Below, in pieces: positions 1,002-63,425 of a DNA stretch of 64,000 nt. Every line of letters begins with the position of its first letter. Positions within the stretch are counted from its first letter, which is position 1. The notes under the pieces were generated by a model. It did no database searches, had not been told where the DNA came from, and was given only the letters and a program-made list of their open reading frames with translations. This DNA comes from Rhizophagus irregularis (taxonomy: Eukaryota > Glomeromycota > Glomeromycetes > Glomerales > Glomeraceae), in contig NC_089441.1 in NCBI RefSeq assembly GCF_026210795.1, positions 2,728,001 to 2,792,000 on the forward strand, given 5' to 3'. Position numbers and translations under genes: made by a program.

Positions 1002-1501
1002 TCTTATTACGCTTAAAAAAAAAGAAAAATTAGATTATCATATCGTTTATCTAATACGAATATATATACGATGCATATCAAATTTTTTTGTGCACAGAAT
1101 AAAATTTTTTGTGCACGAAAATGGGCACTATTATTTGTGCACTATGGATAAACCACGTGTGAAAAAAAATTGGTGTATGGCAGTCTGCCAGATGATCAGT
1201 AATTGAAAGGGACCAATAAATTAATTAGCATAACGAAAACAATTTTTAAGAGCATTGGATATCATTTAAGGATCTTATAGAAAAGGCTTTAATTTTTAGC
1301 GGCGCTGAAAATTTTGATGATAGTCATGTATCAATTATTAAGTATTATTTGATTTTTGCATCAAATCATTAAGTTTAGCATTATTTGAAGACTTTTTTAT
1401 TTAATATAATAATTACAAACATGCTATTATTTTATGTATTTATTATAGCTTTGAAGGATATCGGAATGTGAATTATTATTCCGTGAATGAAAATAAAAAA
1501 C
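1002..1501. other. Non-coding AT-rich spacer with tttgtgcac repeats
   Basis: No credible ORF. Between 1085 and 1145 the word TTTGTGCAC occurs three times with a nearby GGGCAC variant, so a small degenerate repeat cluster is present. Nothing else is recognisable. Confidence 0.5.
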
Positions 1502-2409
1502 TCATTTATCATTATCGACTAAAAAAGGAAAAGAAATTAATAAATTTTGTATTTACGACTAAAAAAGAAAAAAAAAATTAATAAATTTTGTACTTACCAT
1601 TTCGATCTTCTGTATTTAGAGTATTTGTATTTTGAGTATTCCGGCTCCCACGTGCTATAAAATAATTAAGAAAATCAATAAAAATTTATAATTTGATTAA
1701 ACTTTTATACTTTACATATCATTCCTTCTGTTTCATCTGCGTTGAGTTATATTAACACCAATTGAAGCCTGTACAAACTGATCATCTAGAAACATATTAA
1801 ATCATATTAAATAAAACAATTTACCTCTTTAATATAATCATTTTGTTGATTATGTAATGTTGTTAGATTTAAAAGTTCTTACCTGGTTTCTCCCAAAACC
1901 GTGTATTCATGACTTCAAAAAAATGGCACCAGCACGGCTTCTTGCCCCTCTCGGATCGTTTGCAATCACTAATAATTGATCCTAAAGTATTAAGTGTTAA
2001 ATAAGTATTAATAAGTATTAAAATTACTATTACAACAAATTTTTATTAATATTTAACTCACGTGATAACCGGTCACTAATCCATTGAATTTTGTTTGGCA
2101 CTGTTTGCCCGAATAATTGCTCCCACACCTCTCATTTACTTTATTCGCAACAGAATTCCAGAAATTTTTTCTACTTCTTCCTGCAATTTGATAATGGTAC
2201 TCGAAGTTTCTTGACCTCCGCTGCTCAATCAAAGCAGCGATTTGGTCATCCGACCACTCCACCCAGCCAGAAGAATAAGTTATAGTGTTGAAAATGGAGG
2301 TAGTATTGACATTGATGGTATTGGTATCATTGACGGTGGTTGAATCAGTTGAAGATGAGGATATTGTTTGAAATTTTGTTAAAAAATTGTTTAGAATATT
2401 TGGAAACAT
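1502..2409 (-). pseudogene. Myb/SANT-like (trihelix-type) DNA-binding protein, five exons, two frame breaks
   Basis: Exon 1 (2409-2062) starts MFPNILNNF, then a Ser/Thr/Asn linker, then a trihelix/SANT-like domain: WVEWSDDQIAALIE, RRSRNFEYHYQIAGRSRKNF, NKVNERCGSNYSGKQCQTKF. The exon ends at a GTGAGT donor. Further exons inferred from GT-AG signals and continuity of sense are 1981-1883 (DPRGARSRAGA, then NTRFWEKP in another frame), 1785-1716 (DDQFVQAS, then LNADETEG), 1654-1598 and 1518-1502 (ends VDNDK). A run of seven T in exon 2 and a one-base shift in exon 3 break the frame, so this is a young pseudogene or has sequence errors. It probably binds DNA and may be an accessory gene of the neighbouring CACTA-type element. 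That link is an inference from proximity. Confidence 0.55.
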
Positions 2410-3076
2410 ATTTGATAAAAAAAAATGTATTGATTATAAAAAAAAATATGTATTGATTATTAATTAGTATTGATTATCAAAAAAATGCGAGAAAGTTCTT
2501 GTAACAATTCTAATTATGCCATTCAATTATCATGATATTATATCATTTCATTTTTTAATTATTAGTACAATTTTTAATGTAACACCATTTCAAAATGATT
2601 TCATTGATTCATGATATTATATCATAAAATTCACAAAACATAGAATTCGTAAAACTCCGTCTCTTGTCCATTAAAAGTGATTAAAATGTCGATCTTCCAT
2701 TGTTTTCCATCGTACAAAAAAAAAAAATTAGCCATTAAAAGTGATTAAAAATTTTGTAAATTAGGCCCAGTATTATTCTTACGTAAAAATTAACATTTAT
2801 TTATTACGACTTACTAATGTGAAAAAAAATTAATTAATTTTATTAATTTTACATCTCGAATTGATTTAATGTTAATTTTCAAATGTTGAATTAATGTTGA
2901 GCGCGTTAAACGAATTCGTTGAGCAAAAATTATGCTTATGTAATACACGATTAATAATTTTTCATTTGATGAAAGTCACGAGACATACTATCTTCTTGCT
3001 TATATTATACACGATTATCACTAAGCTTGAAATGGAAATCAAATGTGTCATCATTTTCTTTATTTGGTGTGGCATA
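2410..3076. other. Non-coding spacer with short repeats
   Basis: The palindrome-like word TCATGATATTATATCAT occurs twice (about 2528 and 2606), and CCATTAAAAGTGATTAAAA occurs twice (about 2669 and 2733). No coding sequence can be supported. The 90-codon open frame at 2894-3166 runs antisense to the transposase tail and looks fortuitous. Confidence 0.5.
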
Positions 3077-6000
3077 CTACAAGTTAAATCTTCTATTCAA
3101 AGGTATAATCGACAAATATTTTTGTTTTCCTACCGTAATATTTCTAAATTTTGTAGCTCAACATAATATCCTATGAACCGCTAACAGGGAATCACAACCT
3201 TCTTGAAAGTATTCGGCTTTCCATAATTCGGTATTTGATATTTCTGGCTCCATAAAACTATGTTTAAACCGAATACTAGAAGAAGGTGCAGGTTTATACC
3301 ACTTGACATATGCTAGGAGGTGAGTTTTCGTTCCTTCTGGAAATCTAAGGGCATGCTCGAAATAATATTGGACTTCACCTGGATAAGTGTCAACTGAATC
3401 ATCATTAGCTGCTTTCCATTTTGCAAATATATTCGCATTTTTTTCATGGCGACCAGAAATCATAGATCCAAATATTTCGGCGCCAATTTGTAGTCTTGCA
3501 TGCTGATTCATATGCAAATCCATAAATCCTAACACATCTTCTTTTTCCCTTTCATATAATATTGCATACCATTCACATAGAAATCCTCGCAACTCCAAAG
3601 GCATAACGACATTGATATATGATGGGTTAAGCATTTGGCCAGGTAATGGTTCAGTGCCATATATTTTGGAAATCATAGACGTATTATGTCTCATGAATAG
3701 AAAATGCTGCAGTTCCTCCCTTTCTGCTGTGATTGCTAAACTTCCTACAGCTTTTTTTGGTACAAGAAGATGGAGAGATTCATCTAGAAGGCCAGATGTC
3801 CATTTACATGATAAGTGATAATCCACCAAAGTGTTTTTAAGAACAATTTTCATTAATTCGGGTTCTATTTGTCGGTTACTATTAGGATATGATCCTAAAT
3901 AACAGGAATTTTTTTAATAAAGGTACTAAAGACAATTGAAAGACACTGAAGTAAATTTACCTATATATCCATTAAGTCTTTCAAACAGGAAAAGCCAAAA
4001 ACTATATATAGGACCATAATCACGACAGCAATCAGGGATATGAAGTGCGAGATGTATATTGCTTGTTATAAATTCTGGTCCATATGTATATTCTATAAGG
4101 TAGGCCATATCTTTTAACCTCTCTTGCGCCTCCTTCAAATCATCATCTGTAATAAATCTTGCTACTAAAAGATTACAAGCTCGAACAAAATGCCCTAAGA
4201 TCTTTCTATCATTATCATCTAGCATATCCCATAATATAGATGTAGAATAAATCATAATAAAGGTCTTCCATTGATCAGCAGTTAAGTTAGAAAACCCATC
4301 ATTTCCGATTGCAATCTTTGGAGGAATTCTACCAATGTCAGAAGGTAAAACAATATTATCCATTCTGTTTTGTGCTACACGAAGTTGTTCCATAGTTAAT
4401 TTTTTTTGGTTTACAAAAATGGATTTGATTATCCATTTTGCAACACCGAGGAAAAGACAATGCATAGGATCCACTACAGCAAATCATATAGGATCCATGT
4501 ATGGTAGGCGAAGCACTTCAGTCCATCTTATACCATGTACTTTAAAATGTGCTTCTCTGGAGGACTTTGAGTTACATTGCAACCATTCATGAGCATATTG
4601 CCTATGTAATAAAAGATCTGCAGGCTTTGTTACCCATTCATTATAGTCTTGCATTCCTCTGTAATGAGTTTTTCTAAATTCCTCGCTATAAGTGGTACAT
4701 TTATCACACCTATAGCATTTCATTACTGCAAATCCATGACCAAATAACTTTCGTGTAGCTGGAGTATCAGACGATCTAACAATTAACCCAACTTTTATTT
4801 CTAAACCATTGGAAAATTGGTGAGTTTTTGGTACTTTCCACCCCTTCCAAAGTTCTAATAACTCATCTACAATAGGAGCTAGATAATGATTAATGCGTTC
4901 CAACCCTGCCTCTTTTGGTCCTGGTAAGAAACCCAAATATATAATATTTTCGGGCTTATTCCTTTCTGACCTTGGAAGATTGCAAATAGACGCATAAATA
5001 GCGCCAGTACTATGCTGCGTGTAGGAGAATGGTTGGAACCAATCAAGATTAAGGAGAAGACCTAGATGGGTTGTGGCAGTCTCTGTTGTAAAAAAGGTAC
5101 TACCATCAAATGGAAAATTTTTCCATACCTTACCATCGTAAATATCTGAATAGATATTATTTTCGTTTCTTTGAGTCCCTGATAATTTTAACATGTTCTC
5201 AAAATCTGGTCGTTGATATAAAATGCTCAATTGCTGACGAATGTTTGGCTTAGGATAAAGCATGCGAGGTACCGCAATTGTTGCATTTTTATTTTTTTTG
5301 AGAATGGAAAGTGGATTATTGCATTGGTGATTACGACTTGATATTGGATTATTTGGATACTCTTTATACGGGCAATTCATTATAGCAACTTTTCCTTCTT
5401 CCTTATATGCAATAATATCTTTAACATTATGCAATTTATGGCAATCGGTACATGCAGCTAATTGCATTTTCGGTTGAAAAATGTTTAACCATATTTTTGC
5501 CATATATAATGAGGTAGGAAAATTTTCAAATTGCAACTTATCAAAGCGCATAAGAATTATATGAAAAAATTTTATTAAGAATTCAAGTGCAATATCAGGC
5601 AATCGAAATCTTTGTTGAAATTTAAATAGCCATATTATAATCTCAGTATTAATAGAATCACTTAAGCTTTCCACTATAAATGCTTCTTCATTGTCATTGT
5701 CAATCTTAGGAGATGCGAAAAAATCTTCTACATCATCATTCTCCTCTCCTTCATCCACATCATCATTCTCTTCCTCATCCATATTATCTACATCATCATT
5801 CTCCTCTCCTTCATTCACATCATCATCATTCTCTTCCCCATCCATATTATTTACATCATCATTCTCCTCTCCCTCATCCACATCATCATTCTCTTCCTCA
5901 TCCATATTATTTACATCATCATTCTCTTCCCCCTCATTTATATTATCTACATTATAATTCTCACCAAAATAATTGATTTCATCATTATTTTCATCAATTG

Positions 6001-33991: not shown

Positions 33992-35699
33992 GGATTAATT
34001 TTACATTCATATTCGGTGAATTTCACCTTGATCTGCAATGCATTAAAATTATTAAAATTTTAAATTTACCCTGGTGAAATTCACCAGGTGATTTCATATT
34101 ACACAAACACGTAATGCATATTTTGTTTTTTGCTTTCTTGTAGTATTGTTTTCAAAATGACCAGCTTTTACTTTTTATTTTCTTATTATTTCGTTAGTTT
34201 AATGTTCTTTTTCTCTTATGCTAACTTGTTAACTTGTTTTTCAGAAAACAACAATTTCAAATAACTTCAAGAAGTTAAGGTAAGACTCACTTTTATTGCT
34301 AGTATTTTTATTTTTCTACCATTCCCTTTGCTTCCACTTTGTTTTTAATTATCCTTTTTATTTATCATTATCCCTTTCGCTCCTATATTATTTTTCATCA
34401 CTCCATATCGCTTCATATCATTTTTCATCACTCCATATCACTTTTCATCACTCTATATCGCTCCATATTATTTTTCATCACTCCATATCGCTCAATATCA
34501 TTTTTCATTACTCTATATCGCTTCATATTATTTCATATCAGTTTTCATCACTCCATATCACTTTATATCATTTTTTATCACTCCATATCGCTTTATATTA
34601 TTTCATATCGGGTTTCATTACTCTATATTACTTCATATCACTTTTCATCACTCCATATCGCTTCATATCACTTTTCATTACTCCATATCGCTCCATATCA
34701 CTTTTCATCACTCCATATCGCTCCATATCATTTTTCATCACTCCATATTGCTCCATATCGTTTTTCATCACTCTATATCGCTTCATATCGTTTTTCATCA
34801 CTCTATATCACTTCATATCATTTTTCATCACTCCATATCGCTTCATATTATTCCATATTACTTTTCATCACTCTATATCGCTTCATATCAGTTTTCATCA
34901 CTCCATATCGCTCCATATCATTTTTCATCCCTCCATATTGCTCCATATCATTTTTCATCACTCTATATCGCTTCATATCATTTTTCATTACTCCATATCG
35001 CTTCATATCGTTCCATATTGGTTTTTATCACTCCATATTGCTCATATCAGTTTTCATCACTCTATATCGCTTCATATCAGTTTTTATCACTCTATATTGC
35101 TCCATATCATTTTTCATCACTCCATATTGCTCCATATCATTTTTCATCACTCCATATCACTTCTTATCATTTTTCATCACTCTATATTACTTCATATTGT
35201 TTTTTATCACACCATATTGCTTCATATCATTTTATATAAGTTTTCATCACTCCATATTACTCCATATCGTTTTTTATCACTCCATTTTATTTTGCAACAT
35301 TCCACTTTATTTTTCATCATCTCAATTCACTTTGTATTATTTCATTTTGTTTTACATCATCCCATTTCTGTTTTTATTAACCTATTTCACTTTCATTTCA
35401 TTTTTCATTATTATAAAGGATTATATATTGTGCATTACTATAGGTTTTAAATTAATAAAAAAGCTGGATTAAATGGTTAGTGGATGGGTGTAATAGTTTA
35501 ATTAAAGTTATGTTAATTTAAAAAGAAACTTTTTGTCAATAAAACTTTAAAAATTTATGGTCAATAGAAAAAACTTTTTTTTACATGTTTATTCAAACAC
35601 AAAAAAATTTTGATGTGATGAATTTTAATAAATTTTAATATAAAAATAAATATCATGTGATATGGTGAAATTCACTCCCGGTGAGCATTAAAATGATCC
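33992..35699. mobile_element. Non-autonomous MULE (element A) carrying a minisatellite
   Basis: Left end GGATTAATTTTACATTCATA, then TTCGGTGAATTTCACC; right end GGTGAGCATTAAAATGATCC. Both match MULE element B (50302-53847). A perfect 9-bp TSD TAAAATTTT flanks it (33983-33991 and 35700-35708). No transposase. Inside is a T/C-rich leader with splice-like sites, then a 30-bp tandem array. It would be mobilised by a B-type transposase. Confidence 0.95.
34375..35285 (+). repeat. 30-bp minisatellite, about 30 units, T/C-rich
   Basis: Consensus TTTTTCATCACTCCATATCG followed by CTCCATATCA (30 bp), with T/C variants at fixed positions. The unit length is a multiple of three and contains no stop on +, so all three + frames stay open (up to 384 codons, Phe/His/Ile/Ser-rich). 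I treat these ORFs as by-products of the repeat. Confidence 0.92.
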
Positions 35700-41952: not shown

Positions 41953-42196
41953 TAAGGTTGCTTGTCTAAACCTCTTCAAAATCCTACGATTAGTTTCGTC
42001 AAAATTTTACTATAGATTTATTATAGTTTCGGCAGAGTTTCGGCAGTTTCGGCATTTATAATAAGTTTTGGCAGTTTCGCCATTCTCCAAAGTTTCGCCA
42101 GTTTTTTAATATAACTTTAATATAGTTTCGGCAGAATTTCGCTTTTCGGCGAAACGCCATCTTGCCTAAACCCCTAGGTTTCGGCAAGCAACCTTA
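41953..42196. mobile_element. MITE family 1, copy 2 (244 bp, hAT-type)
   Basis: TIR TAAGGTTGCTTG / CAAGCAACCTTA and a perfect 8-bp TSD GCTAGTAT (41945-41952 and 42197-42204). Same length as copy 1, with only scattered transitions between them. Removing it restores the host reading frame LCYSLASINNKYINGIKAD. Confidence 0.95.
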
Positions 42197-42913
42197 GCTA
42201 GTATTAATAACAAATATATAAATGGAATTAAAGCAGATATTGGATTATATTTAGAAACTTCTGAAGTATCAGCTTCTTCTATTGATATACTTGCAAATAT
42301 AGGATTATCAGTATCTAGAAAAACAGTAAATCGACAAAAAACTTTTATTTCAGAAAATCATCAGTATACTGTAAATAACTACTGTTTACAAAATATTGAA
42401 AATATGTTTATACTTAATATTGATAATTATCATTATATTTATAGAAGAAATCAACTAACTCTATTAAAAATATATGACATTAATCATTTTGTAACAATTT
42501 TATTAAATTCAAATCCTAATATTCCTAAAATACCTTATTATGAGTTAAATAATATTCCAATTCATAATCCTAAAGATGTTGATTTTAAATTAATTATAAA
42601 TTATATTAATGTTAACTTTATAAGTAAATTAGAAAAAGTTTCTTATAAAATAAATTGGAATTTCTTACTGTTCATAATTATAATAGACGTGTTTAAAATC
42701 AACAGGAATTAAGATCAATGAAAAATAATAAATTAGTAGATTTTATTTTATATCCTTTGCACAATACAAAAGATTATATTGAATTTGCAAATATTTTATT
42801 TAAGGTATTTGAAAAAATAGAACAAAAAGATTATTTTAATAACTTTATAATACCTACAATTTGTGATTGACCTGGTCAAGTCAATCTAAAAAGAGCTATT
42901 ACACTACCTACTT

Positions 42914-54838: not shown

Positions 54839-55403
54839 TCTATTTCCCAAGAAATAACAACGTAAAATACATACATAACACCAAAAAAACGGGTGCTATT
54901 ATATCAGAATTTCATTATTATGGCTATATTTATATGACTTGTTTATTATTTTTTAAGAAAAATTCAAGATAACTATTCCTATTTTGAAATTACATTAAAA
55001 CAGGATCCCAGATAATTATAATTGAGGTCATATCTTACTATGTTTTAAATTTTATTTTTCTTTTAACATGTAATTTTATTAAGTTAATATTATTTTTTAC
55101 CATAGAAAAAAATGTTTCTTTTGAAGAGAAGAATCTTTTGATACCAAAATCTTGCAAATTTCCTTATTAGAATTTGAGATAAGTATCATTACACAGGCAA
55201 AATTTGGCAAAAAAATATACGCTTTTTCACTATCAGTATACATGAAAATATACAAAAAAATAAAAATTACTATTATTAAATATTACTTTTTAAGTAACAA
55301 AATTATAGATAATAGGAGGGCAATTATTATTACAAAGTTTTGTATTTATAGTTTTAAAAGTAAGTTCAGGATGACAAGGGTAAATTTTTAGCATAGAAAA
55401 TAT
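54839..55403. other. AT-rich spacer
   Basis: No feature apart from the left TSD of the following hAT-type element (55396-55403). The open frame 55152-55391 is AT-composition noise. Confidence 0.4.
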
Positions 55404-56326
55404 TAGAGCTCCGAAACCTGACCCGACAGATCGGGTGACCCGACGGGTTGACCCGAAATATTCAGGTCAGGTCATCAAATTCATGACCTGACACGGGTCG
55501 GGTCAGTGCTAGTCGGTACCCGACCCGACCCGTTGACCTGACATATATTTGGGTCAAATAAATTAAATAACGCCGAAACTTATAATGATTCCGGCGTTTT
55601 TACATGTAAAATCGAAAAAAAACGCTGGAACTAATGATTCCGGCATTTTTACATGTAAAATCAAAAAGAAAAATGCCAGAACTAATGATTCCGGCGCTTT
55701 TACATGTAAAATCGAAAAAAAAACGCCGAAACTATCAGTTTTAGCGTTTTTACATGTAAAATCAAAAAGGAAAAACGCCGGAACTAATTATTCCGGCGCT
55801 TTTACATGTAAAATCGAAAAATAAACGCTGAAACTATCAGTTTCGGCATTTTTACATGTAAAATCAAAAGAAAACTGCCGGAACTAATGATTCCGACGTT
55901 TTTACATGTAAAATCAAAAAGAAAAACACCGGAACTAATGATTCCGGCGTTTTTACATGTACAATTGAAAAAAAAACGCCGAAACTATCAGTTTCGGCAT
56001 TTTTACATGTAAAATCAAAAAGAAAAACACCGGAACTAATGATTCTGGCGTTTTTACATGTAAAATCAAAAGGAAAAACGCCGGAACAAATAGTTTCGGC
56101 GTTTTATATATAAAAACAAAAAGTAAAAAACATTACAAAACGTTTTTTTACAATATTTAATAATGAAACTTCGGATAACCCGAGTTACCCGAAGTGACCC
56201 GAATACTTTCGGGTCAAATGGGTCAGGTCGGGTCAGAACGGTTTACCCGACCCGACCTGACCTGAAAAAAATTTCGGTTCGGGTTAACCAGGTAACCTGA
56301 CCCGACCCGACCCGTTCGGAGCTCTA
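55404..56326. mobile_element. hAT-type element with tandem hairpin array, copy 1 (923 bp)
   Basis: TIR TAGAGCTCCGAA / TTCGGAGCTCTA, perfect 8-bp TSD GAAAATAT (55396-55403, 56327-56334). Both subterminal regions are packed with ACCCGA/TCGGGT and GACCTGAC words. The middle (55571-56118) is 11 units of about 50 bp. Each unit has a hairpin (stem CGCCGGAA / TTCCGGCG, loop CTAATGA, alternating with a GCCGAAACT / AGTTTCGGC form), the 14-bp palindrome TTTTACATGTAAAA, then an A-rich spacer. CpG-rich by local standards. No credible ORF. Confidence 0.95.
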
Positions 56327-56569
56327 GAAAATATGACCTTAATTATAATTGTCCAGGTTCCATTAAAACTTAATAAAAGCCCTTTTATTATTTATATATT
56401 TCATTATATTTATATTTTTTACAAACTGAACGTATTTGTAAAAGAAAAAGAGATATAGAAGTGCATAGTGTTATTAAAAATGTAATAGTTAACAGAAATA
56501 ATAATCAAAAAAGTTTTATAAGCGTCAAAAGAAAGTTAAAGAAATAGAAATCGATTATACCATTTATAT

Positions 56570-56845
56570 TAGTATTCTGCACAAATCGATTCGTGACATG
56601 ATGTGACTCTGATCACTCCCAAATAATAAAAACGTATTTTACGAATAACTTTTGATCTAGCAGTCCAATTTTGATGATCTTTTTTTATTTTGATCAGGGC
56701 CAACAAGACCTATCGATTAAAAAAAAATTATTGAAATTGGATCACTAGATCTTGAGATAATAATTTTTGGAGGTCAAATTAAGTCTGAATCGAGTCTGAA
56801 TCAAATCGAATTTCAGAGGAGAAATTTGATTCGTGCAGAACACTA
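56570..56845. mobile_element. MITE family 3, copy A (276 bp, hAT-type)
   Basis: TIR left TAGTATTCTGCACAAATC, reverse complement of right TAGTGTTCTGCACGAATC. Perfect 8-bp TSD ATTTATAT (56562-56569, 56846-56853). A reverse-complement relative, interrupted by another element, is at 60805-62506. Confidence 0.92.
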
Positions 56846-56853
56846 ATTTATAT

Positions 56854-57510
56854 CATAGAAGTAAAATACTATGAAATTTCTGTTTCCTACATATAAAACT
56901 TTATAGATTGCAAAGAAAAAAAAACTTATAAAAATTTTTTTTTCTGAGATCTTAAACGTATATTGCAGGTGTTAAATTATGCAATTGTATAACAATATAG
57001 TTGCATTTTATTTGATATAAAAAAATGATCAATATGGCTTATATATAAATGTTACGCCGCATTTTATTATATAAATTCTATCAATCATATGCAAATCAGC
57101 AATTAAGTTTTTATTATTATAATAAAGTATGAATATTTATAAACTATAGATTTAATTATTATTGAATTTCAATTTATGCTTTTTTTTAAGATGTTTTCTT
57201 AATGCAATTTCATATTTTTTTAATATTAAAATTTACTCTTGATAAGTTCTTCTAATTTAAATGATGATTTATTTTCTTTATATAGTTTGTCATTCTTATT
57301 ATCATCTATTATAATATTTTTCCTAGGTCTTTCTTACTACTTAATTATACTTTTGCTTATATTTTATAGGAACTGACTTTAATTTTTTAATTTATACTTT
57401 AGTAATAATAAATTATTAATTTTAATTAAAAATAAAGGTAATATTATATATAATCAAATAATTAATCAATTTACCTTAACATTTATTGAACTCAATATTA
57501 TGAATAATGA
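56854..57510. other. AT-rich non-coding stretch
   Basis: No ORF, repeat or RNA gene that I can support. Confidence 0.4.
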
Positions 57511-58237
57511 GTAGTATTCTAAAAGAATTAGGTCAAATTCAGATCATTTAACTTGATTCATGTTTAATTATTTGACATGAGTCTTATATTTAATCTGACT
57601 TGTCAGATCAGACCTTTTGCTTAACTTGGGTTGACTCAAATTGACCAAATATTCATATTTAAAATATTTATAAATATTTATATTATATGATTTTTAATTT
57701 TTAACTTTATTTATATATAGAATAAGTGAGGCTGAGAAATTAACTTTTGGAAAGCAAACTTATTTAAGAAGTTTAAAAAAGTACTTAATCTTTAAACAGA
57801 TCAAAATCAAGATGTTCTACTATGATAGAAAATATATGATTTAATAATATTAGTATATTATATTAGATTTTATTAATTCGTTATAAAAATATATATTATA
57901 GTTAAATATAATAGAGTATTTACAATTTTATACCTAACAGTAATAATAAGAAATTATCTTGTAATTATTGAATAATATTAAAATTGGTTAAATTTTTTTT
58001 ACCTGTAATTAAAAGTGTTATAGTTGAAAATTTTTCTGAAAAAACTAGCTAAAAGAAGTAATCTAAAACCAAATACAAATCACATGTGTACTATGCATTT
58101 AAAATCAAGCTGAATATAAAAAGAATTTAATAAAAATTATATATTTTAAATATCTAAAAATTTTATTTGGATTTAGATTATCTAGAAATTATGAATGTAT
58201 CCTCAAATCTAATCTAACTCGACCCTTTTAAAATACT
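57511..58237. mobile_element. Probable inverted-repeat element of about 0.73 kb
   Basis: Left AGTATTCTAAAAGAATTAGG, reverse complement of right AGTATTTTAAAAGGGTCGAG. Flanking 9-mers AATAATGAG and AATAATAAG differ by one transition. Internal GTCAAATTCAGATC / TGACTTGTCAGATCAGACC words resemble decayed subterminal motifs. Strongly decayed. Confidence 0.55.
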
Positions 58238-58599
58238 AATAATAAGGTTTTTATTACATTTTCTATAAGATACTAATGAATATACCCTTTTTTTATCTAA
58301 TTTACATCTCCTATAATAAGAATTATTAATTACATTAATTATAAGTATTACTATAATCAGTGTTATTATGAGATACAGATATGGACATGGGACAGCCGGA
58401 ATTGGACAGTTCCTGTTTGTGTCCTGTACTTTTTATGTCCTGGATATATTACAGATATTATATATAAATCACATGATTATTTTATTTATGATTTAAATAA
58501 AAGTTTATATTTAAAATAATGATTATTGATTAATAATTAGTATATTTATGTTTAAATGTAAAATAACAATTAATTATTTATTATTTTGCAGAATTAACA
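58238..58599. other. Non-coding spacer
   Basis: 58381-58446 is a less AT-rich patch with GGACATGGGACAG, GGACAG and GTCCTG words (possible decayed element end). No gene. Confidence 0.35.
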
Positions 58600-60480
58600 T
58601 CAAAGACACAGCAAATTAATTTACATCAATTATTAGAATGGTAAATTTACATTTATATTATTAAAGAGTGTTAACAAATTCCATTTAGCACTAATATCAT
58701 TAGCAGGATGAGTAACATCACCTATTGGTGTATTACTTTGTTCTTCAGTTTCTTCATCAAGCTCAGCATTTTTCTCGTTCTTTAGCATTTCAGCCCAACC
58801 TTGAAGATATTTATTAAAATCATTTTCTAGCTAGGGTTCAGTAATTTCAATCTAGCCTAGCATTACCCAAAAAAAAAAGCACTGGTCATATGACTTTTTA
58901 AAAATCATCGCATCTGTCACACTTCTCAGTGTTTTTATTATTTATATTTATCTGAAGGACTTGGTTTTTTTCGAGTTGATAAAAACTTATTCGTCACATG
59001 TTATATGTCACTACACTATTCATATGACTATGCATAATTCTGCATAATGCCGGCCACCAGTACTTTTTTTGGGATAACGCTAGTGTAGTTGTAATTTCAT
59101 CATCTAAATTATCTTCTATTGGTTCAAAATTAATTTCTAAATTAGCAGCTGAACTATTATCTCTAATATTTTCCAAACCATTTATATTATTGAAATGTTG
59201 ATTAATATCAGTTTCATTTGCATTATTAATATCTAATGTAGGTTTAATAGATAATGGATTATTATGAAAATGATGGGCATATGTAATTTCAGCTCTTAAT
59301 TTGCAGCTTTAGATGACTATATATTAAAAAATTAATGTTAGAATATATATGTTTTTAATAAAATATAAATATAAAATATATCATTAATCTATTACACCAG
59401 TTTGTTTGTAAAAACTCCATGCAGCTCTAAAGCCTTTTTATAGAAGCATTTATACATATATTAAAAATTTTACAAGCTACAAAATCCAATTCATTTGTAG
59501 AAACACTAATATAGTACCAATAACACCAAATGTTATTATCAAATTGTCTATAAGCTTCAAGATCAAATGGATATTTAGCTAGCCAGAAATCATTAAATTC
59601 ATAGAGTATACATTTTGGTTTTTTTTCAGATCATGTACAATAATAGTACATTAGCCACTTTTCAAATGCTGAATAATTGACACTAGAAATTGTATTATTA
59701 AATTTAAATTGATTCATTCAGTATTCAGGATATAACAAATAAGATAGTAATAGGAGTGATTATTCCTAATCTTTCTAACATTTTTCCAATTATCTAAAAA
59801 TTTGCTTAGCAAGTGTGTAATCTGAATAATTCAACTAAAATTGAACCAAATAATTCATATTATATACTATCAGAAAAAAACGCATCTTATCATATTATAG
59901 TAAATTAAGTAATTTACAATATAGCAGATAGATCAAGAATTTTATTAATAAGCATAATTTGATCCTAGAATATAGAAAAGTTAATAATCTCAAATATTTC
60001 ACGTGATAAAGTTGGTGTTTCTCCTTGCTGACAATGTATTTCAACAATTGGTAATTTAAAATTAATAGTTAGAATCTAATAAAAAAAATTAGAATTAAGT
60101 TTATATCTATTGCTAATTTTTAATTAATTATTAAATTATTTAAATATGCTTATTACTTGTTGAGTTTTTAAAAGACTAATATATATATTATAAAGACTAT
60201 ATATTCCATCATGTCTCTTTTGGAACAGATATTGCAATATGTTTTTTATATGTTTCATTTGCTGATTTCATAAATGTCCAATAAAGTATTTATGATTTGA
60301 ATTGTTAAAATAAGTAACAAGCTAAATACTATGATTAACAGTAATTTTAAATTCAGTAGATTCTTTAAAAATTTTGCCTACATAAAGTCAGATTTATTGA
60401 TTTTCTTGTAAAATTTTTGAAGTTAAAATATAATAAAAGATAAAGTCATAGGACTGTTTGCACAGCAAAAGGATAAAACT
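58600..60480 (-). pseudogene. hAT transposase pseudogene, C-terminal half
   Basis: Minus-strand blocks: EYxMNQFKFNNTISSVNYSA, FEKWLMYYYCT, KPKCILYEFNDFWLAKYPFD, LEAYRQFDNNIWCYWYYISV, STNELDFVACKIFNICINAS, KRL stop SCMEFLQTNW (59770-59390). These match the hAT dimerisation-type region with pattern ELxxxAcrIfsicvNaaSvERLWS; TGA replaces its Trp. After a spacer come ENIRDNSSAANLEINFEPIE and the terminal NDFNKYLQGWAEMLKNEKNA, HPANDISAKWNLLTLFNN (to about 58665). Stops and shifts throughout. It differs from the BED-hAT at 25444. Confidence 0.65.
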
Positions 60481-60739
60481 TACCAGTATCATGCAATGAG
60501 TTTAAAGATGAGTAGGCGGCATATTTCTAGCTTTAGATCAGCCTTAAAAGTAGCCTGATGGGAATGTTTTTTACCACAATTACTGTCTATTTGAGGAATT
60601 TATAAAATACTCAGTAATATAGATGACCTCTTGAGGATAATAGGATACTAACCCAATGATATCTCAAAAAGAGGTAAAGGAAGACCTGGCCGTAAACTAA
60701 TAGCAAAATAAAAAAGTAAAAAAATAAAACTAGGGGTTG
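60481..60739. other. Non-coding spacer
   Basis: No ORF. 60520-60660 is less AT-rich than average and may belong to the body of the SINE-like sequence that follows. No firm call. Confidence 0.3.
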
Positions 60740-60804
60740 ATCACTTTAGTGCAGTTGTTAAAGCGGCACTTCTTCATATAGCCTGAGTATGATAAGGTCG
60801 CAGA
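60740..60804 (+). repeat. tRNA-like segment, possible SINE head, truncated
   Basis: TAGTGCAGTTGTTAAAGCGG resembles an A box (TRGYNNARNNGG), and AAGGTCGCAG resembles the bases just before a B box (GGTTCGANTCC). The B box itself is absent because MITE family 3 copy B begins there. No cloverleaf can be completed, so it is not called as a tRNA. Confidence 0.3.
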
Positions 60805-62506
60805 TAGTGTTACGTACAAATCAAATTTCTTCTCTGAAATTCGATTCGATTTGGATTTGATTTGACCTCCAAAAATTATTATCTCAGAATCTAGTAATCC
60901 AATTTCAATGATCTTTTTTTTAATCGATAGGTCTTATTATCCTGATCAAAATAAAAAAGGATTATCAAAATCAAACCACTAGATCAAAAGTTATTTGCAA
61001 AATACATTTTTATTATTCAGGAACAATCAGGGTCATACCATGTCATGTAAAGCTTCGCAACTTAATCTGAAAGATTGGATAACCCGACAGGTTGATCTGA
61101 AATATTCAGGTCAAGTTATCAAATTCATGACCTGACACTGGTCAGATTAGTACTAGTCAGTACCTGATCCAACCTGTTGACCCAACATATATTTGGGTCA
61201 AATAAATTAAAAAATACCAAAACTAATAGTTCTGGCGGTTTTGTATATAAAATCAAAAGAAAAACTGCTAGAACTAATAATTCTGGCATTTTTACATGTA
61301 AAATCGAAAAAAAAATGCTGAAACTAATAGTTTTGGTATTTTTACATGTAAAATCAAAAAAAAATGCCAGAACTAATGATTCTGGCATTTTTATATGTAA
61401 AATTGAAAAAAATGCTAAAACTAATAGTTTCAGTAATTTTACATGTAAAATCAAAAGGAAAAATACCAAAATTAATGATTCTAGCATTTTTACATGTAAA
61501 TTAAAAAAAAAATGCTAAAACTATTAGTTTTGGCATTTTTACATATAAAATCAAAAAGAAAAACACCAGAACTAATAATTCCAGTATTTTTACATGTAAA
61601 ATTGAAAAAAAATACTGAAACTAATAGTTTTAGCGTTTTTAAATGTAAAATCAAAAAGAAAAATGCTGGAACTAATGATTCTGGCATTTTTACATGTAAA
61701 ATAAAAAAATACCAAAACTAATAGTTTTAGCATTTTTAGATGTAAAATTAAAAAGAAAAATGCTGAAACTAATGATACTGGCGTTTTTATATATAAAATT
61801 GAAAAAAAATGCCAAAACTATCAAAACTATCAATTTCAGCATTTTTACATGTAAAATCAAAAAAAAAAATGCTGGAACTAATAATTCTGGCGGTTTTACA
61901 TGTAAAATCAAAAAAATACTGAAACAATCAGTTTTAGCATTTTTACATAAAATCAAAATAAAAAATGCCAAAACTAATGATTCTGGCATTTTTATATGTA
62001 AAATTAAAAAAAAAATGCTGAAACTAATAGTTTTGGCATTTTTACATGTAAAATTATAAAGAAAAATGCCAAAACTAATAATTCTGACGTTTTATATAAT
62101 TACATGTAAAATTAAAAAGAAAAATGCCAGAACTAATAATTCCAGTATTTTTACATGTAAAATCGAAAAAAATGCCAAAATTAATAGTTTTGGCATTTTT
62201 ATATATAAAATAAAAAGTAAAATACTGGAACTCTTGAACCTGACGTTTTTTGTATAATTAATAAAAAAAACATTACAAAACGTTTTTTTACTTGAAATAT
62301 TCAGTATAATAATAAAACTTCAGGTAACCTGAGTTACTTGAAGTGACCTGAATACTTTCAAATCAAGTTGGTCAGGTTAAGTCAGAACGGTTTACATGAC
62401 CTAACCTGATCAGAAAAAAAATTTCAGTTCAGGTTAACCAGGTAATCCAACCTGACCTAACCCGTATAGAGCTCTAGTGTTATAAATCAATTCATGCGGA
62501 ATACTA
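60805..62506. mobile_element. MITE family 3, copy B, split by the hairpin-array element
   Basis: Reverse complement of copy A: left TAGTGTTACGTACAAATC, right end AATTCATGCGGAATACTA. The interior (60835-61040) parallels copy A base for base with many transitions. The match stops at 61047 and resumes at 62477, where the hAT-type element is inserted. Its own TSD is no longer clear. Confidence 0.82.
61048..62476. mobile_element. hAT-type hairpin-array element, copy 2 (1,429 bp, transition-decayed)
   Basis: Ends TAAAGCTTCGCAA and ATAGAGCTCTA, versus TAGAGCTCCGAA and TCGGAGCTCTA in copy 1. About 21 units of roughly 50 bp (61211-62270) with the same hairpin plus TTTTACATGTAAAA layout, but nearly every CG in copy 1 reads TG or CA here. 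Flanking 8-mers ATGTCATG and GTGTTATA differ only by transitions, consistent with a decayed TSD. Spurious repeat-encoded ORFs (Phe/Thr/Lys-rich) run on both strands. Confidence 0.92.
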
Positions 62507-62605
62507 ACACAAATTCAGTTCTACTAATTACAGAAATTAAAATAAATTTTATTGCAGATGCTACCATCAATAGCGTGAAGGTACAGGGATTAGTATAATT
62601 AGACT

Positions 62606-62945: not shown

Positions 62946-63425
62946 ATTACATTTAAAATATATTTAATTTTCTTTAAAATATATTTAATTTTCTTTAAAA
63001 TATACTTAATTTTCTTTAAAATATACTTAATTTTCTTTAAAATATACTTAATTTTCTTTAAAATATACTTAATTTTCTTTAAAATATACTTAATTTTCTT
63101 ATTTTATACTTAAAATATACTGAAAATTGAATTTTCGCAAAATTTGAATTAAATTGTATTTAATATATACTTAAAATATATTTAATTTACATTTAAATTT
63201 TGCCTATTTCAGTATATTTTAAGGATATTTAAAATAAGAATATTTAAGTATATTATTATATACTTAAATTATACTTAAATGATATTTAATTTTTGCCTAT
63301 TTTAGTATATTTTAAGTATAAAATAAAATTTTAAATATATTTTAAATATAAAATAAAATTTTAAATATATTTTAAATATAAAATAAAATTTTAAGTTTAT
63401 TTTAAGTATATTTTAGCAAAAATAT
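62946..63425. repeat. AT-only tandem repeats
   Basis: 62955-63115: about eight copies of the 21-bp unit AAAATATACTTAATTTTCTT+T. 63300-63415: three to four copies of a roughly 30-bp unit containing ATATAAAATAAAATTTTAA. Both are built of the same AATATA and TTTAA words, and the block is partly self-complementary. Confidence 0.85.

Follow-up and report, generated by a model that had tools for sequence, protein, structure and literature searches.

MITEs with internal satellites are already known, and so is an internal region that is common to several MITE families; the comparisons that follow refer to the consulted parts of the cited papers. The Pearl-type MITEs of bivalves (CvA, DTC84) are non-autonomous elements of modular build that contain short satellite arrays inside, and for DTC84 a conserved palindrome has been reported near the repeat junction (PMC5139131). 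However, Pearl arrays comprise at most six monomers, which resemble some satellite monomers (PMC5139131), whereas the arrays found here in Rhizophagus irregularis are built from double-palindrome units of 50, 52 or 60 bp, with three unrelated arrays behind one end type and one array behind two end types. In the CMITEs of Acropora corals the internal region is better conserved between families than the TIRs, a new element was born by insertion and tandem arrays occur, but the ends are related to piggyBac, the arrays are made of whole elements and a hairpin satellite is not described in the consulted text (PMC2872659). The satellite monomer miDNA4 of Xenopus tropicalis was likewise born in a MITE and amplified in tandem, but this is a Tc1/mariner MITE and the consulted text does not mention a palindromic double unit (PMC9659126). 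Among the foldback elements of Drosophila, Tetris has internal tandem repeats that seed satellites (PMC4079207) and the repeats of Galileo contain further sites for transposase binding (as cited in PMC4079207); in both the repeats lie in long TIRs (PMC4079207), whereas the element described below has TIRs of 12 bp and a central array. Finally, the annotated hAT elements of R. irregularis come from the same species, belong to a recently expanded superfamily and include copies of low methylation, but neither hairpin arrays nor array sharing are described in the consulted parts of the two reports (PMC11075540, PMC8647823): the words 'tandem' and 'satellite' are absent from the main text of the former, and 'hairpin' and 'MITE' from the consulted text of the latter. 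Among the titles and openings of abstracts listed in a literature search, none describes these hairpin arrays.

The element under study lies in a window of 64,000 nucleotides (C13:2728001-2792000), and the genome that was searched comprises 146,748,485 bases in 32 contigs. It is a non-autonomous, MITE-like hAT element with an internal satellite (Table 1). We consider it, with a probability of roughly 0.8, to be a hAT element mobilised in trans, whose cargo is a palindromic minisatellite module that spreads independently. A preliminary description of this DNA knew of no named family with such a layout, which holds only in part: the kind of element, a MITE with an internal satellite, is known, but three unrelated double-palindrome arrays behind one end type, one of them exchanged with a second hAT family, go beyond the cases found in the literature and look new.

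Table 1. Features of the array-bearing element and of its second family member in the window (window coordinates)
Feature	Position	Strand	Basis or remark
Left TSD, 8 bp, GAAAATAT	55396..55403		Sequence inspection
Left TIR TAGAGCTCCGAA, 12 bp	55404..55415	+	281 exact matches genome-wide
Left subterminal region, CCCGAC / GACCTG motifs repeated	55416..55560	+	Sequence inspection
Array, 11 units of about 50 bp	55566..56129	+	CpG-rich hairpin, then TTTTACATGTAAAA-like palindrome in each unit
Lone D hairpin AAACATTACAAAACGTTTTTTT	56124..56150	+	Also beside V2-A and V1-C arrays
Right subterminal region, CCCGA / GGGTC repeats	56165..56314	+	Sequence inspection
Right TIR TTCGGAGCTCTA, 12 bp	56315..56326	-	Exact reverse complement of left TIR
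Right TSD, 8 bp, GAAAATAT	56327..56334		Perfect match to left TSD
Second V1-A member, old and decayed	61048..62476	+	16 hairpins still recognisable; decay at 57% of the scored stem CpGs

The exact TIRs and the identical TSDs on both sides bear out the hAT-type ends that had been proposed for this element, and the proposed cargo of head-to-tail units of about 50 bp was also found. TRF reports a 50-bp unit repeated 10.8 times at 55583-56129, next to periods of 101 and 253 bp. The array holds 11 palindromes at up to three mismatches, nine of them exact copies of TTTTACATGTAAAA, and 10 of the 11 hairpins are matched by the hairpin pattern; the first hairpin has a longer loop. A typical unit consists of a CGCCGGAAC-TAATGA-TTCCGGCG hairpin followed by TTTTACATGTAAAA or a near match, and the two main loop types, CTAATGA and CTATCAG, are interspersed, as previously stated. 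Arrays of this kind, called type A here, are nearly strand-symmetric. The earlier statement that a transposase is absent from the element can be maintained, as its longest ORF spans 79 amino acids and is, by eye, derived from the repeats. An Rfam scan of 55300-62600 gave no family, and an exact search of viral_contigs with a 21-base piece of the unit gave no match. The exact TIR matches 281 times genome-wide against three matches of a reversed-pattern control, TTTTACATGTAAAATC 760 times and the hairpin core 148 times, both against none in the control. Since these numbers are far above the controls, the features of the element are not due to chance.

Ends of this kind are referred to as V1, and elements that combine them with a type-A array as V1-A. 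In a similarity search the best 40 of 471 candidates were scored and hand-grouped into 40 loci; 39 loci besides the window were fetched, three of which turned out to have the second end type described below (V2), and together with the two window copies this gives 38 V1-A loci. All copy numbers in this work are pattern counts or lower bounds. The expected family of copies with the same ends and 8-bp TSDs does exist, with a TSD of 8/8 in 22 and of 7/8 in three of the 38 loci. A convincing TSD is missing in the other 13, of which five are one-ended and eight have a TIR pair but less than 7/8. The latter include the copy at 61048-62476, which the preliminary description leaves out and where the TSD is preserved at 5/8 positions (ATGTCATG/GTGTTATA) and all three differences are transitions. 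Unit number varies as predicted, from 7 to 34 hairpins per locus, with nested inserts lying between the 34 hairpins of L037. MITEs are usually well under 1 kb; the V1-A copies with a TSD span 722-1779 bp because of the array.

When the flanks of one copy (L023) were joined with a single TSD, matches of 83-87% were obtained at 40/40 scored places, the best 40 of 119 candidates, and all 40 cross the join and thus represent uninterrupted paralogous sites. One of these empty sites (L105) was inspected closely, and its alignment extends over 399 bases and is free of gaps. Together with the other empty sites this shows that the ends and the TSD are real. The elements display the absence of coding capacity, the high copy number (63 array ends), the TIRs and the TSDs of a MITE, and the 8-bp TSDs, the short TIRs exact at both ends, the hAT-coding partners with the same ends and the empty sites of a hAT element. 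hAT TIRs are short and begin with YAG, and the target preference of hAT elements is nTnnnnAn. Among 58 TSDs of 7/8 or 8/8, position 2 is a T in 28 and position 7 an A in 31, these being raw counts in an AT-rich genome. Two other classes were considered and rejected: a foldback transposon, which has long TIRs of tandem repeats, is contradicted by the 12-bp TIR and the central array, and a CMITE-type element with piggyBac-type ends and a TTAA target by the 8-bp TSDs and the TAG ends.

The array is not confined to V1 elements. A pattern for the right end of the array matches 63 times genome-wide and never in the control. Assigned partly by reading, 37 of these array ends belong to V1, 24 to a second vehicle, V2, and two (L066, L077) to neither. 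In detail, 22 adjoin the V2 TIR TAGTGCTCTACA(C/T)GAGCC with its GAGCC/AGCTCG subterminal repeats and 22 fall in the V1 loci already fetched, while of the other 19 array ends 11 have a V1 TIR (at up to three mismatches), two are V2 by sequence (L067, L080) and four (L072, L073, L074, L078) show the V1 inner flank, but cut, decayed or interrupted. The array end at C7:3933505, one of the 22 next to the V2 TIR, is V2 in its own right, with the TSD CTGCCCAT on both sides. Eight complete V2 copies with the array (L084-L091) have TSDs of 8/8 in seven cases and 7/8 in one; with L038-L040 added, the 11 V2-A copies comprise nine with 8/8, one with 7/8 and one that is single-ended. The preliminary description had held that units occurring genome-wide without its TIRs would refute its reading. 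This concern is partly justified, since 37 of the 63 array ends are indeed V1 but 24 lie in a vehicle with different ends.

One might ask whether the array is an ordinary dispersed minisatellite that is flanked by hAT ends merely by chance, as it is found with two kinds of ends and two of its 63 right ends show neither. We consider this hardly credible, since V1-type (37) and V2-type (24) flanks account for the other right ends and the arrays are bounded by TIR pairs with 8-bp TSDs. Moreover, the 100 listed of the 760 palindrome matches form clusters in which the matches lie about 50 bp or a multiple of it apart, and none of those listed is shown to stand alone. A third vehicle, suspected from L072, was dropped as a probable nested insertion. 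The corresponding pattern has one exact and seven two-mismatch matches against two in the control, and at L104 (C19:3103700-3105900) there is no TIR/TSD pair within the limits of the scan.

Between three V1-A and four V2-A copies, the array DNA shows 80-86% identity in stretches of up to 1263 bp. In contrast, a comparison of both ends of the window element with the same four V2 copies, three of which were trimmed by 50 bp per side, gave no significant match (best E 0.012). By reading, the similarity between V1 and V2 continues beyond the last unit and ends at the D hairpin. Array and ends are thus separable modules. The unit subtypes CTAATGA, CTATCAG, CTAATTA, CTAATAG and the terminal CAAATAG are common to V1-A and V2-A, and each vehicle also has private subtypes; CCAATTA, for instance, is nearly restricted to V2 (24/25). 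Given these shared and private subtypes, the simplest reading would be a single transfer of a multi-unit block between V1 and V2, followed by separate evolution.

Two further kinds of hairpin arrays were found behind V1 ends. V1-B elements (L046, L049, L092-L103) have units of about 60 bp with a CGTCGGGTTTGACG hairpin and a GAAAC...GTTTC hairpin, and all 14 hold at least six type-B hairpins and none of type A. Their TSDs are 8/8 in six and 7/8 in two of the 14 cases, with the score of L096 referring to the V1-C element nested in it; the outer pair of L096 is 8/8 as well. V1-C elements (L042, L047, L048, L050-L061) have 52-bp units of GTGAATCGC...GCAACTCAC and a TATATAGATTCTATATA palindrome, and 12/15 have a TSD of 8/8. 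One or two type-B hairpins also lie beside the type-A array in 13/38 V1-A copies. The D hairpin AACGTTGCGAAAACGTT is present in 34/38 V1-A, 11/11 V2-A and 15/15 V1-C elements, but only in 1/14 V1-B elements (L096, which has the nested V1-C element) and in none of five larger elements. In the 61 kb of the window outside the elements, the hairpin patterns match once (A), twice (B), never (C) and twice (D). This distribution points to an ancestral element that bore several hairpins, with different hairpins multiplying in the individual lineages.

A search for an autonomous hAT element with TAGAGCTCCGAA ends, advised in the preliminary description, yielded larger candidate elements. Among exact V1 TIR pairs, picked from the first 100 of the 281 TIR matches, L043 (4683 bp, without a recognisable TSD) and L044 (3901 bp, TSD 8/8) contain exons of the hAT dimerisation domain (Pfam Dimer_Tnp_hAT) with E-values of 5e-9 and 1e-5, respectively. 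The remaining transposase parts of both were recognised by reading only, and the N-terminus of L044 has no Pfam match. The left end of the window element is 83% identical to L043 over 71 bp and its right end 87.5% over 32 bp; the right end is 75% identical to L044 over 72 bp, and the left end 82% identical to the V1-B element L046 over 158 bp. L043 and L044 are candidate suppliers of transposase, and V1-A elements would be moved in trans by the transposase of such larger elements with the same ends. Array-free elements also exist with V2 ends, namely L082 (4155 bp) and L083 (4130 bp), both with a TSD of 8/8. L082 encodes a BED zinc finger (E 1.4e-8) and a hAT dimerisation domain (E 1.3e-4, 22.1 bits against a cut-off of 21.4).

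MULEs, too, generate TSDs in this size range (8 to 11 bp), and one V1-C element, L042 (C9:3897322-3901664), combines V1 TIRs and a TSD of 8/8 with an open 740-amino-acid MULE/FAR1 frame at 1121-3343 that is absent from its short sisters (MULE domain E 2.4e-18). However, a place of the V1-type elements among the MULEs is very improbable: L043 and L044, both with the same TIRs as L042, possess the hAT dimerisation domain. In addition, the other 14 V1-C elements measure 727-1086 bp and thus lack the segment of about 3.3 kb (L047 being the one aligned), and a ninth TSD base is inconsistent, as the 52 perfect TSDs can be extended in 15 cases on one side and in 26 on the other. The MULE/FAR1 segment of L042 represents either a gene capture or a nested MULE.

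Within an element, the module seems to lengthen by duplication of multi-unit blocks, as two copies suggest. The youngest copy, L019, contains an exact repeat of 196 bp, 454 bp apart, which is best explained by a block duplication. In L037 one foreign insert occurs twice, about 660 bp apart, in blocks that are 93.5% identical, the inserts being 97.7% identical, and this pair looks like a duplicated block. Alternatively, the insert may have hit a hot spot twice, as L029 bears the same insert family at a like place in opposite orientation. Foreign inserts were observed at or beside the ACATGT palindrome of the type-A array in L037 (C26:242751-246198), L029 (C15) and L033 (C16), with the ends AGGACCCCGGATATC in L037 and L029 and CAGTGCGGTACC in L033; this palindrome may be a preferred insertion site.

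hAT elements have also inserted into the hairpin arrays. A V1-C element of 696 bp lies inside a type-B hairpin of L096 with the TSD GGTTTGAC, and its removal restores the unit. Likewise, the type-A array of a V2-A element is interrupted by L081, a V2 element of 4.16 kb, which has 16 palindromes ahead of it and two behind. At this locus (L081/L107/L108, C7:3933100-3939300) the host V2-A element has the TSD CTGCCCAT, and the TSD of the nested element is 6/8, both differences being transitions. It is possible that this nesting is a snapshot of how vehicles meet arrays.

The TSDs and the empty sites show that the module is copied elsewhere with each transposition of its vehicle. The comparison of V1-A and V2-A further shows that a block of several units has passed at least once from one hAT vehicle to another whose ends are unrelated. 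The crossing most likely took place at the D hairpin beside the arrays, either by recombination or by template switching when the break that hAT excision leaves was repaired. Alternative routes would be a nested insertion with a later deletion or a composite of two V2 ends.

The hairpins themselves decay once inserted. Decay was scored in 712 hairpins from 49 arrays with a pattern that allows chiefly transitions and misses more decayed hairpins. Stem CpGs are decayed at 1521/5695 positions (27%), as compared to 17/1424 (1.2%) at two non-CpG stem sites, and the share per copy rises from 1% in L019 over 17% in the window element to 57% in the copy at 61048-62476. When stratified by copy and unit type, the decay of partner positions is independent (OR 0.97, 0.76, 0.73 and 0.70; z -1.3 to -0.15), and the 558 hairpins belonging to the two main types show no compensatory changes after this stratification. 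Pooled tables had given an apparent signal (type A pair 1: OR 2.6, p 1e-4; pair 5: OR 1.6 and 1.8, p 0.07 and 0.08), but it is gone on stratification and was ascribed to the different ages of the copies. Among non-partner pairs, |z| exceeds 2 in 2/12, both negative. Since partner positions decay independently, nothing preserves stem pairing in the resident copies, and the hairpins are unmaintained after insertion.

The decay pattern is that of methylated CpG, and methylation itself is inferred from this pattern and the published methylome of R. irregularis. Of the roles that the preliminary description had suggested for the array (small RNAs, methylation, protein binding), the mutation pattern thus fits CpG methylation. 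According to the consulted parts of that study, 30.8% of CpGs are highly methylated, with high levels in most TE families, many hAT copies are weakly methylated, and AGO-loaded small RNAs are centred at 24 nt and stem particularly from young TE loci (PMC8647823). An inserted element would hence probably become methylated, silent DNA, in which the observed loss of CpGs lets the hairpins collapse without compensation, and hairpins would matter, if at all, only in a few young source copies. In CTAATGA-type hairpins the first stem C is changed to T in 173/311 cases, whereas the adjacent G is changed to A in only 23/311. This uneven decay within one CpG points to context-dependent deamination or repair.

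It is conceivable, though in our opinion unlikely, that the arrays are a selected cargo whose hairpins are transcribed or folded to yield small RNAs or to set CpG methylation de novo, and that this silences or protects the elements, to the advantage of those that bear an array. L019 is indeed very rich in CpG (observed/expected 2.32 against 0.75 for the window), three arrays of unrelated sequence (A, B, C) share one hairpin-plus-palindrome plan in elements with the same ends, and the consulted text describes CpG methylation at most TE families of the fungus as well as 24-nt AGO-loaded small RNAs (PMC8647823). However, the 558 stratified hairpins lack compensatory changes, many hAT copies have low methylation in the same source (PMC8647823), and circular self-complementarity, reached by none of 2000 shuffles for units A2 and C and thus clear for these, is only modest for units A (19/2000) and B (79/2000). 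Equally doubtful is the notion that hairpin-plus-palindrome arrays are interchangeable, selected hAT cassettes, of which at least three unrelated ones arose behind one end type and one is common to a second hAT family, since a palindromic, CpG-dense array would help its carrier. The benefit might lie, for instance, in stalled replication or gap repair by which the element is copied, in methylation that hides the element or in its own small RNAs. The repeated origin of such arrays can be read in two ways, either as selection for arrays or as a mere effect of repair, in which palindromes are easily multiplied.

Under the preferred account of a module that moves in trans and spreads independently, the spreading unit is the cargo rather than a single element family, and like arrays occur in sister families. 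A satellite-like array would thus be a cargo able to change its transposon vehicle, and this in a TE-rich fungus long considered asexual. The copies form a natural series from young to old (1% to 57% stem CpG decay), along which it could be traced, copy by copy and with the available methylome and small-RNA data, how a mobile satellite grows, is methylated and decays. On the practical side, repeat libraries built on internal sequence may here merge two different hAT families.

The window contains some other repeats. A short element-like stretch at 41960-42200 has the ends AAGGTTGCTTG...CAAGCAACCTT with GTTTCGGCA repeats inside, and like ends are found in L077. About 1 kb of a 30/60-bp minisatellite, ATCGCTCCATATCATTTTTCATCACTCCAT, lies at 34358-35319. 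Just past the element at 61048-62476, a 21-bp minisatellite, TTTAAAATATACTTAATTTTC, occupies positions 62952-63100 with 7.1 copies and a match of 99%, and it is either very recent or homogenised.
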